From assembly GCF_947495275.1 (NCBI RefSeq), contig NZ_CANLYL010000003.1, positions 434,001 through 498,000 on the forward strand: a stretch of DNA of 64,000 nucleotides. The letters run 5' to 3'. Under the pieces are notes generated by a model, which worked only from the letters and a program-made list of their open reading frames with translations, had not been told where the DNA came from and made no database searches. The DNA comes from an uncultured Roseobacter sp. (GTDB taxonomy: Bacteria; Pseudomonadota; Alphaproteobacteria; Rhodobacterales; Rhodobacteraceae). Position numbers and translations under genes: made by a program. Of the stretch, positions 7,848 through 63,631 are shown one piece after another. Each line of letters opens with the position of its first letter. Position 1 is the first letter of the stretch.

Positions 7848-8278
7848 CCGGCCCGTCGATCATAAACGGGCGTTGCCTCTGCGGTGCCGTAACAGTGCAA
7901 GCCCATGCGCCAAAACCCATCTTGCGGGCGTGCCACTGCGACATGTGCCGCCAGCACACCAGTGGCATGTTCATCTCGATCGCGACCGAACAAGAGGGCA
8001 TGGTCATCGACGGCCCGGCGGTGTCGTTTCAGTCATCGGAGTGGGCCGAGCGCGGCTTTTGCGGCACCTGCGGGTCAACCCTTTGGTATGGAACCAAACA
8101 TGATGGCGCGCGTCATCTGGCTGCGGGCCTTTTCGAGCAGGCAGCGGGGGCCCGGCTTAAGCTGGAATTTTTCAGCGACATGTGCCCGCAGGGCTATGGG
8201 CTGAAAGGTGATCACCGGCGTCTGAATACGCGCGAGACCCTTGAGATGTTCGAGGGCAGCGAAGGCGACGAGACATGA
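7844..8278 (+). CDS. GFA-fold zinc protein 2
   Basis: A 144-residue paralogue of the preceding protein with the same ligand order: CLCGAVTV, CHCDMCRQHTSG and CGTCGSTLWYG. The start overlaps the previous stop as ATGA, and its own stop overlaps the ATG of the next gene. The tight coupling of the four genes between gltD and gltB argues for one transcript. As for its partner, the family name does not establish formaldehyde chemistry here. Confidence 0.87.
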   Translation: MTGPSIINGRCLCGAVTVQAHAPKPILRACHCDMCRQHTSGMFISIATEQEGMVIDGPAVSFQSSEWAERGFCGTCGSTLWYGTKHDGARHLAAGLFEQAAGARLKLEFFSDMCPQGYGLKGDHRRLNTRETLEMFEGSEGDET

Positions 8279-8958
8279 GAGTTTTCGCAGCGCTCCTTTT
8301 GATCTGTCTTGGCCAGGCCGCAATGGCGGATGGCTCCCGGTTTTACCCACCCGAGGGGTGTACCGGATTCCTGACCGTGCAGAACCGCAGCTGCGAGGTC
8401 ACCAACTACTGGACCTGCGAAGGCGAGGCAGCGGGCGATCAATGGTCCATTGATTTGGGCCCGGACGGGCCGATCTACCTGTCAAAAATCGACTACGAGA
8501 CGCAATGGATCGACAGTTACGAATTCTCACCGGTGCTGCGCGAACAGATTGTGCTGCCTGCAAAAGACCCTGCCAGTTTCACCGACCTGTTGCGTGACGG
8601 CGTGGATACGTTTGATTTCCAGTTGAGCAGTCCCGAGGGCATCAGCCGAGTTGTCGGCGCCGACCGCATTGTCGAGCGCGGCATTGAAATTGACGGTGAA
8701 CCGCTGATGCGCACGGAATACGCGGTACGTGTCACGGCGGCAGATGGTACCATGATCTGGGAAGCCGAAGGATACGAGTATATCTCGGAAAAACACCGGC
8801 GCTTTTTCACCGGACTGCGCGAGGGGCGCGATCAGAACGGCTCCTATTCCTATGACGGCTCGCCTGTCGACTTCATCTATCCCGGAGAGCCGGGATTTTT
8901 CTCCAAGACACCGCTTTACGGATGCGCGGCCTTGACCGTCCGCTATGCCCCGAACTGA
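8275..8958 (+). CDS. Predicted secreted protein of unknown function (second of a paralogous pair)
   Basis: A 227-residue protein with a short signal peptide (MRVFAALLLICLGQAAMADG). The mature sequence starts YPPEGCTGFLTV and has cysteines at NRSCEV and YWTCEG, ending with PGEPGFF and LYGCAAL. The cysteine spacing and the terminal motif match the protein at 6707-7405, so the two look like diverged duplicates flanking the GFA pair. It begins inside the preceding stop codon and ends 13 bases before gltB. The function is unknown; the periplasmic location is inferred from the signal peptide. Confidence 0.75.
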   Translation: MRVFAALLLICLGQAAMADGSRFYPPEGCTGFLTVQNRSCEVTNYWTCEGEAAGDQWSIDLGPDGPIYLSKIDYETQWIDSYEFSPVLREQIVLPAKDPASFTDLLRDGVDTFDFQLSSPEGISRVVGADRIVERGIEIDGEPLMRTEYAVRVTAADGTMIWEAEGYEYISEKHRRFFTGLREGRDQNGSYSYDGSPVDFIYPGEPGFFSKTPLYGCAALTVRYAPN

Positions 8959-60329: not shown

Positions 60330-60405
60330 GGGCCGTTAGCTCAGTTGGTAGAGCAACTGACTTTTAATCAGTGGGTCACAGGTTCGAATCCTGTACGGCT
60401 CACCA
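60330..60405 (+). tRNA. tRNA-Lys (anticodon TTT)
   Basis: A 76-base class I tRNA with encoded CCA. GGGCCGT pairs with ACGGCTC in the acceptor arm, the D-arm is AGCTCAGTTGGTAGAGC, the anticodon loop is CTTTTAA with anticodon TTT, and the T-loop is GGTTCGAATCC. It marks the boundary between the core genome and the small unknown genes and GHKL ATPase to its right, so it may be an integration site. Confidence 0.97.
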
Positions 60406-60435
60406 CTGTTTCTCCAAAGAGATCAAGACGATGAA

Positions 60436-61636: not shown

Positions 61637-63631
61637 TCACTCATCTAACAGAACAGCGGTGAAAGCCTGATTTCGCTTCTTGGCCATCTCGACGAGGGTG
61701 TCATATCCGAAGGCCTGAATGAAAATCGAACCGTCCCGGCGATAGCGTGTCCAAATCTTGGGATTGTAGTCATTTGAAAAGTCGTGTTTTCGCAGCACTT
61801 CAACTAAACTCGAAGTCAAATCTGCGATGATATAGGCTTGGCGTCGGGCCACATTACCAAATGACATGTGCTGCCCGTCTGTTCGCGTTATTCCACCCGC
61901 CGCAATTGCCTTTTCTAGCGTCTCGATCACTTGGGTAACCGGGTCGGTCTTGGCCGGTCCAAACCGATAATCATTTCGACTCGGTTTCTTAAACTCTACG
62001 ATAGTCAGGCTGGTACCGTCTTCATCGCCGAGCACCATTGTGTCGTCATAGAACAGGAGGTCCGTTACCTTGTCACCTTTCTTGCGCCCGCCGCCATGCA
62101 TCGTGCGATCACTAGAAACGTAGGGCAAGAAAGCCAATGCGTCGTCAATGAGCCAAAGGTTGTGCTGGAAGTATTCAACGTCGGTGCTATCGCTGAAGCG
62201 ACGAAAAATCAGGGAGTGAACATCGTCTTCGGAGCCTCTGCGGTCGCTGTCGTCGAACCTCCGAGCAGCGTCGATCAATTCAATGATGCTTTTGCGATGC
62301 AAAACATACTCGGCCAAAGCCTCTTTCTTGCCTGCGTCAATCCGACTGGCCAGTTCCTGAATATTTTCTATGTAAGAGTCTGGGTTATTGGCGGCTTCTG
62401 TAATCTGCTTCAAGAGATCGCCAGTGTTTCTATATCGGAGCAAGGCAAGGTCTTTGACGAATTCCTCCGCCCCCCAATTATTGGGCTTGCGTTGGACGTA
62501 TTCAGAGAGGGTTTGCCCGCCCAAACCCAGACGCAGTATTGGGTTCTCATGGAGCGCCAGGTTTAGCTCTGCGGCTTGACCCGTCTTGATCTTCTCGATC
62601 TGCTGTTGCTCACGATCTTGAATCTTCTCACAGACAGCGCCCACAATTTCTTCAACTGCCTTTGGCGGCAGGTCCAAGCTGGTGCGCGAGTCGTTCAGGC
62701 GGGTCTCAAAGGCATCGCCTCGCACGACAGCAACAATGATAAATTTGCTGTCGTCCTCATCCACGAAGTGCGTGGCACCTAACTTGTTTGACAGGTCGCG
62801 GGGGTGTCCAACAATCCGGTCCGCCGCAGCGAAAAGAAGGCAATGGCTTTTGAACTGTCGCGTCTTGGGTATCTTGGTCAGCGTGTAATTCAGGGCGCAG
62901 GTTGCGCCGTCGATGGAGGTGTCGATCTGGCCCGCGGCATGTTCAACGAATACTGCCTTGAAATAGCTGGTGATGTTCTCTGGTTCTTCATCGTCGAATT
63001 GCAGATGAATTTCAGGCAATCCACGATACAAGAAATACGGTAAAAAGTGCGATCCAATTTGATCCTTTACATCCTGCTTCGACAGTCCGCCGATAAGCTC
63101 GAACCAATCAGCCAGTGGCTCATCCAACTCGACACACAAACCGCAACCGGAAAAATCAGGCTCACCGTCGTGAAAAATGATTTCCTCGTCTTGCGAAATG
63201 TCAAAGCGGAAGGTCTTTGCCGCCTCGGCAGCAGATGTTTCAAACCTGCTGGAGTAGTGAATACGCGAAAACACCTTGAACGCTATGAAGCGACCAAATC
63301 CGCGTCCGCGTTTGCTGAGTTTGTATCCGCTGAAAGGAGTCCGAAACGACTTATAGTTTTCGTCATTCAAACCTACGCCATTATCAGTGACACTGATCAG
63401 CACTTTGTCCGGATCGTTTAGGTTTTCGAATTTAACGAGAATTTTCCCTTTCCGAGAGGCTTGGTCATCAAAACGCTGTTCGATGCCATCCATTGAGTTC
63501 GAAAGGGCCTCGAATACTGGTAGCAGAAAGCCTTGCACATTTACCGACAAATTGGTGCGCTCAAGAACTGCCAGCATGTCCGGCTTGATCAAGGCATCCG
63601 CCTCAGTCGCAATGTGATCAAAATCTTCCAA
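61637..63631 (-). CDS. GHKL-type ATPase with PD-(D/E)xK-like C-terminal domain, possible defence protein
   Basis: A 664-residue protein. The N-terminal Bergerat ATP-binding fold is visible: N-box FEALSNSMDGI with Glu41 and Asn45, G1 box VTDNGVGLND with Asp83, and G2 box KRGRGFGRFIAFK around residues 108-120. This resembles HSP90/MutL/MORC-type ATPases. The C-terminal third has a nuclease-like core: TDLLFYDD near residue 524, then LTIVEFKKPSRND with Glu546 and Lys548, as in Shedu-like and other PD-(D/E)xK enzymes. The middle is helical and charged. ATP-driven nuclease action against invading DNA is a plausible inference from the fold pair and the island setting; no known system name fits. Confidence 0.8.
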   Translation of the reverse strand: MEDFDHIATEADALIKPDMLAVLERTNLSVNVQGFLLPVFEALSNSMDGIEQRFDDQASRKGKILVKFENLNDPDKVLISVTDNGVGLNDENYKSFRTPFSGYKLSKRGRGFGRFIAFKVFSRIHYSSRFETSAAEAAKTFRFDISQDEEIIFHDGEPDFSGCGLCVELDEPLADWFELIGGLSKQDVKDQIGSHFLPYFLYRGLPEIHLQFDDEEPENITSYFKAVFVEHAAGQIDTSIDGATCALNYTLTKIPKTRQFKSHCLLFAAADRIVGHPRDLSNKLGATHFVDEDDSKFIIVAVVRGDAFETRLNDSRTSLDLPPKAVEEIVGAVCEKIQDREQQQIEKIKTGQAAELNLALHENPILRLGLGGQTLSEYVQRKPNNWGAEEFVKDLALLRYRNTGDLLKQITEAANNPDSYIENIQELASRIDAGKKEALAEYVLHRKSIIELIDAARRFDDSDRRGSEDDVHSLIFRRFSDSTDVEYFQHNLWLIDDALAFLPYVSSDRTMHGGGRKKGDKVTDLLFYDDTMVLGDEDGTSLTIVEFKKPSRNDYRFGPAKTDPVTQVIETLEKAIAAGGITRTDGQHMSFGNVARRQAYIIADLTSSLVEVLRKHDFSNDYNPKIWTRYRRDGSIFIQAFGYDTLVEMAKKRNQAFTAVLLDE

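Follow-up and report, generated by a model that had tools for sequence, protein, structure and literature searches.

A GHKL ATPase-nuclease gene of the paraMORC3 / GHKL-Shedu type carried in a tRNA-Lys-integrated element of an uncultured Roseobacter

The window considered here is a stretch of 64,000 nucleotides from an uncultured Roseobacter sp. (contig NZ_CANLYL010000003.1, positions 434,001 to 498,000), and the subject of this analysis is a gene close to its end whose 664-residue product joins a GHKL ATPase domain, an S5/transducer-like middle domain and a PD-(D/E)xK nuclease domain (Table 1). The open reading frame (ORF) was confirmed at exactly the tabulated position with TTG as its start codon, a start that is uncertain, since in close relatives the longest ORF opens as much as 16 residues further upstream (L039) or 7 further downstream (L041). 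The gene has a GC content of 50.5%, against 58.6% for positions 1-60300 of the window, and is separated by 1.2 kb and three small ORFs from a tRNA-Lys gene. It is cargo of a 15.0-kb element integrated in that tRNA gene, and this setting is the new part of the description.

Table 1. Features of the gene and its element in the window, followed by the corresponding slots of related elements and the 220-residue gene near close relatives
Feature	Position	Strand	Remarks
tRNA-Lys(ttt)	60330..60405	+	integration site of the element
attL repeat	60361..60407	+	45/47 identical to attR at L016:395-441, outside the window
Element ORF, 72 aa	60505..60723	-	no assigned function
Element ORF, 93 aa	60720..61001	-	relatives at the same end of elements L190 and L194
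Element ORF, 208 aa	60993..61619	+	no assigned function; 74% identical relative in the same place in L189
GHKL ATPase - S5 - PD-(D/E)xK nuclease gene (paraMORC3 / GHKL-Shedu type)	61637..63631	-	664 aa
PD-(D/E)xK nuclease domain	61637..62248	-	residues ~462-664; E468, D524, E546, K548
Long helical linker	62249..62596	-	residues ~346-461; AlphaFold2 model
S5/transducer-like middle domain	62597..63115	-	residues ~173-345; model matches over residues ~5-350
GHKL (Bergerat) ATPase domain	63116..63577	-	residues ~19-172; Pfam HATPase_c and AlphaFold2 model; limits by eye
G111-x-G113-R114 (G2 box)	63290-63301	-	G111, G113, R114 invariant
D83-N-G-x-G87 (G1 box)	63371..63385	-	D83, G85, G87 invariant
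N45 codon	63497-63499	-	invariant over 78 rows
E41 codon, N-box glutamate	63509..63511	-	invariant, 78/78 rows
ORF, 72 aa	63782..64000	-	between the cargo gene and the terminase genes just outside the window
Slot of L189			SLATT_3/SLATT_1 and DUF5677 proteins
Slot of L190	4233-5108		291-aa protein, no Pfam/PADLOC match at E<=0.01
Slot of L191			N6/N4 methylase and AlwI/NucS-like nuclease
Slot of L192			Eco57I-type methylase and BsuBI/PstI-type restriction enzyme
Slot of L193	12319-15830		GHKL protein (HATPase_c_3, 572 aa) and 598-aa neighbour
Slot of L194			DRT2 reverse transcriptase, E 1.7e-120
Slot of L195			C5 cytosine methylase
220-aa gene, L024	14115-14780		
220-aa gene, L039, L040, L051	from 12004		
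220-aa gene, L043, L050	near 12.0-12.65 kb		

Domains, active sites and known counterparts

What identifies two catalytic domains in this polypeptide? The N-terminal part is recognised by Pfam HATPase_c over residues 39-144 (expectation value, E, of 5e-8, over the curated cut-off), and residues ~5-350 of an AlphaFold2 model resemble Hsp90, MORC2/3/4 and topoisomerase VI (topo VI) in structure comparison, ATPase modules that have no fused PD-(D/E)xK domain. An alignment of 78 rows was made from the window protein and 77 of 105 usable ORFs, with identities to the window protein as low as 20%. Besides the ATPase residues listed in Table 1, it holds R272, E468, H472, S507, D524, E546, K548 and P550 invariant, with N84 in the first glycine-containing box and R316, which like R272 lies in the middle domain, nearly so. 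Because this invariance persists down to 20% identity, the active-site motifs are not a product of chance; the pattern used to scan genome contigs selects for residues 492, 493 and 496, whose invariance is no evidence. Three loci lacking an open frame across half of the match (L052, L067 and L069) were left out, the partial loci L146 and L147 were unused, and near-copies and some others were dropped before this alignment and the tree described below. The original prediction had pointed to a full Bergerat motif set and to TDLLFYDD and IVEFKKP stretches, all of which are in place. D524 falls within TDLLFYDD and E546-x-K548-x-P550 within IVEFKKP, to which E468, the helix-A glutamate, is now added. 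That a GHKL ATPase and a restriction-fold nuclease share one polypeptide is borne out by HATPase_c, the model matches and the E468/D524/E546/K548 set.

The predicted likeness to Shedu nucleases also held: for the last third of the model a second structure aligner ranked Shedu first, in a tie with the nickase N.BspD6I, and restriction-fold structures head its list, so that the nuclease-domain fold of Shedu is found in the window protein. Besides HATPase_c, Pfam gave no match to the window protein at E<=1, SduA_C was matched in one of 16 family members at E=0.15 and nowhere in the window's own genome, NCBIfam returned weak matches far below their cut-offs and mostly to ATPases, and PADLOC gave the gene no name. 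Searches of the PDB by sequence yielded no nuclease, either with the single protein (one weak kinase and one unrelated match) or with the 78-row profile (weak kinase and weak MutL-type ATPase matches and the enzyme AdmH). Purifying selection acts on the gene, because nucleotide identity to the close chromosomal relative L039, from Rhodovulum, is 87% at first and 56% at third codon positions, and nonsynonymous and synonymous divergence (dN and dS) are 0.085 and 1.50, the latter near saturation.

The domain plan is that of paraMORC3, for which Iyer, Abhiman and Aravind (2008, PMC2292703) give a GHKL domain, an S5 domain and a C-terminal E-D-ExK domain in proteins of sporadic and mobile occurrence. 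These are prevalent among proteobacteria and Bacteroidetes, the two groups to which a stand-alone subset mainly belongs. On published features alone, the window protein shares this plan, with an intact N-terminal GHKL domain, an S5-type domain C-terminal to it and a restriction-fold domain bearing E-D-ExK (E468, D524, E546xK548); no difference in domain plan was found, and the window member sits in an integrated satellite-like element. The same domain order is seen in VcSduA, a fusion of GHKL with a Shedu-type nuclease that blocks T1-like phages and vibriophage X29, in which E27A and K557A each abolish protection, and which Adams et al. (2025, PMC12137116) tie to paraMORC3 and Shedu type I-D. 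Compared by published description, the catalytic glutamate and the nuclease lysine are E27 and K557 in VcSduA (numbering of that paper), E27-E28 and K556-K558 in Vibrio relatives, and E41 and K548 in the window, where E41 is by architecture the counterpart of E27. Unlike VcSduA, the window protein belongs to an alphaproteobacterial branch, and DUF4263 (Pfam SduA_C) is undetected in it by sequence. The gene has the tested paraMORC3 features and encodes a VcSduA-like enzyme; it is not filed as Shedu by the Pfam signature, which fails, though the fold is shared. By contrast with this fusion, the PDB entries of SduA from B. cereus and E. coli (8ti8, 8ti9, 8ps4, 8ps5) name no GHKL domain, and a PDB title gives the B. 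cereus nuclease domain as an octamer. What is not supported in the original prediction is the word undescribed, given the plan of 2008 (PMC2292703) and the phage defence by VcSduA of 2025 (PMC12137116).

The tRNA-Lys element and its relatives

The repeat that bounds the element is the 3' half of tRNA-Lys, and attR lies just past the integrase, 15,034 bp from attL. Past the window, on the minus strand of the same contig, are two overlapping ORFs, the first matching a terminase large subunit and the second phrog_27743, and then a portal, a possible scaffold protein (E 0.004), a helicase-like protein of 1028 residues (E 2e-4), an excisionase-like protein and a tyrosine integrase; no capsid gene was recognised in the element. 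The terminase seems to be split between the two overlapping ORFs (L015:8726-9604 and 8029-8742; window coordinate = L015 + 55999), one for the ATPase portion and one for the downstream portion, and the latter had no relative in IMG/VR. In the congener G266 this tRNA-Lys again follows the upstream gene found here, but the ~9 kb after it hold no match to any element protein, and the T-arm of its tRNA-Lys carries the attR version at both differing bases. On these grounds the G266 locus is an empty site, and integration replaced the 3' half of the tRNA. Like phage satellites, the element shows site-specific integration with att repeats; it may be a satellite that depends on a helper phage.

A search for the portal among 394 genomes of the bacterial family gave matches in 18, its own genome counted, and the seven others whose portal match reached at least 60% identity were all fetched. 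The seven elements have the same order of both terminase parts, a 203-residue protein, a 127-residue protein, portal and integrase; separate matches to both terminase parts are present in all seven, separate ORFs were seen in five, and helicase and excisionase matches in three. They adjoin tRNA-Asn (three) or predicted tRNA-Gly (four). Repeats of part of the tRNA stand 15,220, 15,190, 15,329, 14,690, 14,538 and 14,198 bp apart in six of them, the last three with a second, closer copy; in L194 no such repeat was found. With PHROG, the 72 ORFs of four elements gave portal, terminase and integrase in all four, and no capsid or tail family among the 25 listed out of 36, some ORFs having no assigned function.

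The cargo slot was defined as the interval between tRNA and terminase, and selected ORFs in it were scanned (Table 1). Defence-related genes occupy six of the seven slots if GHKL and SLATT proteins are counted, and four of seven with DRT2, restriction-modification (R-M) and methylase genes alone. The 598-residue neighbour of the GHKL protein in L193 has weak sigma70_r4-like and RNA_pol_A_CTD-like matches, and the 291-residue protein of L190 is a candidate for an unknown defence gene. We tentatively suggest, at somewhat less than even odds, that the window gene is an exchangeable cassette in a Rhodobacterales family of phage satellites that is so far undescribed. Such satellites would be ~14-15 kb long and tRNA-integrating, would have their own portal and two-gene terminase and take capsids from a helper, and would swap defence genes (GHKL-nuclease, DRT2, type II R-M, SLATT effectors) in and out of a fixed slot next to the tRNA. 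If this is true, the GHKL-nuclease would be a weapon that kills competing phages and spares the helper whose capsid the satellite needs. Swappable defence cargo at one site is described for the hotspots of P2-like phages and P4-like satellites (Rousset et al. 2022, PMC9122126), and the window element likewise holds interchangeable cargo at one place; it differs in being of another family, ~14-15 kb in size, with its own portal and terminase, and in occurring in the family of the window genome. Among the papers listed by literature searches none reports such satellites in that genome's group, and the word satellite is absent from a survey of Rhodobacteraceae prophages (PMC8224337). The mobile and defence context is supported, and what was first proposed as a defence island next to a tRNA is more aptly called the cargo slot of a 15-kb element integrated in that tRNA. 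The gene is ordinary as a kind, and what is unusual is its place as a swappable cassette of a satellite-like element family, whose fixed slot may be a source of new defence genes, the L190 protein among the candidates. An element travelling together with the gene was considered and rejected, no element protein being found near any other homologue in the set of loci examined for this.

Distribution and neighbourhoods of relatives

Within the same bacterial family, tblastn found the protein in 11 of 248 genomes, its own counted, a figure that includes three in which only the ATPase part is weakly matched and two whose matches are split or partial. Relatives are carried by 55 plasmid records (48 covering at least 80% of the query, 30 typed conjugative, Ti plasmids among them, and 19 from Agrobacterium) and by one phage record. 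Of 353 stretches picked up by a pattern scan of genome contigs, 349 proved to be relatives, the best 80 being retained; for IMG/VR the figure was 30 of 43. The hosts include Pseudomonadota, Bacteroidota, Bacillota, Planctomycetota and Verrucomicrobiota, with Rhodococcus on plasmids. A tree of 70 rows, built by a quick method with a midpoint root and a program warning of long branches meeting near deep forks, places the window protein in a 15-row alphaproteobacterial clade (support 100) nested in a 27-row alphaproteobacterial group (support 100), and Vibrio and enterobacterial members across the root together with 22 alphaproteobacterial rows. Judged from this tree, the window protein is a member of a separate alphaproteobacterial branch.

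In 14 annotated regions (13 plasmids and one phage) picked for diversity from 56 records, defence-type genes lie within ~5 kb in eight, and the inspected homologues do not sit mostly in conserved core neighbourhoods. The types are RnlA/RnlB, abortive-infection proteins (twice), AbiEi/AbiEii, type I R-M (twice, once with Shedu), PIN and TIR genes on a Ti plasmid, and SAVED/ThiF/nucleotidyltransferase genes, which we take to be CBASS, a cyclic-oligonucleotide-based anti-phage signalling system. An HsdM-like gene lies within 5 kb in seven of 95 loci, and in none is the nearest copy at 5-10 kb (818,101 and 677,010 bases surveyed, respectively). No partner gene is kept family-wide among 1,104 neighbour ORFs from 118 loci, near-copies included: of the 25 listed clusters spanning at least three loci, the widest are recombinases (14 loci), HsdM-like (10) and integrase-like (8), and the rest reach at most five. 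One of the small clusters is the 220-residue protein of close relatives (Table 1), treated below.

Two observations on individual relatives may be recorded here. On the Ti plasmid NC_002377.1 (L026, 8055-10085) a relative is found near repB/repC, followed by PIN, trypsin-like and TIR-domain genes. Four differently named records (L077-L080: Sphingomonas zeae, S. yabuuchiae, a Mesorhizobium metagenome-assembled genome and a record named Arthrobacter sp. TPD3018) share a near-identical gene and flanks with metal-efflux-type genes, a likeness that reflects either recent spread or mislabelled records.

Function and its alternatives

We favour, with a probability of roughly 0.72, an ATP-gated anti-phage nuclease, which in the window genome probably acts alone. 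We infer that on binding ATP the two N-terminal GHKL domains of a dimer would close around DNA as a clamp, that the S5 domain would relay the ATP-bound state, and that the C-terminal restriction-fold nuclease, whose active site is formed by E468, D524, E546 and K548, would then cut invading DNA. An entwined clamp is reported for VcSduA. Since the family has no conserved modification or specificity partner, invading DNA would probably be recognised by a physical feature (such as ends or topology) rather than by its sequence. As cargo of a tRNA-integrated satellite-like element, the gene would serve element and host alike by shutting out competing phages. From the present analysis, this reading draws on the domains, the invariant active sites, purifying selection, the element boundaries and the shared cargo slot; that phage protection needs both activities was shown by others, for VcSduA only.

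Several results weigh against it. Function is assigned by likeness to VcSduA, and the Vibrio-type and enterobacterial relatives that were aligned in its place are just 25-27% identical to the window protein (L092 27% and L105 26%, both Vibrio). DUF4263 (SduA_C) has no match in it at E<=1, Foldseek with the C-terminal model found none at E<=0.001, Shedu was only tied with N.BspD6I in the second comparison of models, and an Hsp90-like fold suits chaperone or repair roles too. Six of the 14 annotated regions have no clear defence gene within ~5 kb, and the PADLOC tallies of neighbours are weak, regions ~10 kb away being defence-rich as well (84 proteins and 309 families near, 84 proteins and 128 families far, counted as families and not as proteins). 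There is also a neighbour that the window gene does not have. In each of the four closest relatives (L024, L039, L040 and L051, the last three copies 78-81% identical to that of L024) the nuclease gene is immediately followed by the start of a gene for a 220-residue protein, which in L043 and L050 is adjacent and convergent (45-47% identical). It has no match in the window's own genome. The window gene thus stands alone, either by design or because a partner has been lost. The 220-residue protein occurs on seven further plasmids and, among fetched loci, in none outside the window's branch; its sequence gave two PDB matches only, at E 0.04, and an RNxIQH stretch invariant in six copies is reminiscent of HEPN ribonucleases.

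This neighbour, adjacent in six loci of the window's branch, speaks for abortive (suicidal) action, in which infection would trigger the ATPase, leading to indiscriminate cleavage and cell death, with the 220-residue protein as toxin or regulator in close relatives; Abi-type or toxin-antitoxin neighbours of some relatives point the same way. We consider this unlikely, given that the gene is missing from the window's own genome and that VcSduA protected at all multiplicities of infection tested, read by its authors as direct restriction (PMC12137116). The 55 plasmid records, 30 of them conjugative and Ti plasmids included, invite another explanation, that the targets of exclusion are not phages but competing plasmids or further kinds of mobile element. 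Topology sensing of the Wadjet kind offers a comparison, and the Hsp90/MORC/topo VI-type clamp would suit it. Since relatives lie on phage-like elements too, the window's included, and VcSduA blocks phages (PMC12137116), this seems a little less likely still. MutL, whose plan likewise joins GHKL and endonuclease, suggests a role in DNA repair or housekeeping, and Iyer et al. (2008, PMC2292703) allow functions other than R-M for stand-alone paraMORC3 genes; patchy spread (11 of 248 genomes), mobile context and the lack of a family-wide conserved neighbourhood make such a role very improbable.

On the anti-phage nuclease reading, this class of enzyme would also take in a deep alphaproteobacterial branch and members on widely spread plasmids; to our knowledge, the class has been tested only in Vibrio. 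Finally, a second island lies past attR, reaching the end of the contig (L016:577-8917). It holds a multiubiquitin protein (PF14452) beside a DUF6791 protein and, by eye, an RNA 2'-phosphotransferase-like ORF and an XRE/ImmA-like pair, as well as a trio that we would name sce7726-like, beta-like and RES. The trio recurs, at ~30% identity to the L016 proteins, directly after a GHKL-nuclease gene in a Lachnospiraceae contig (L085:7804-10511).
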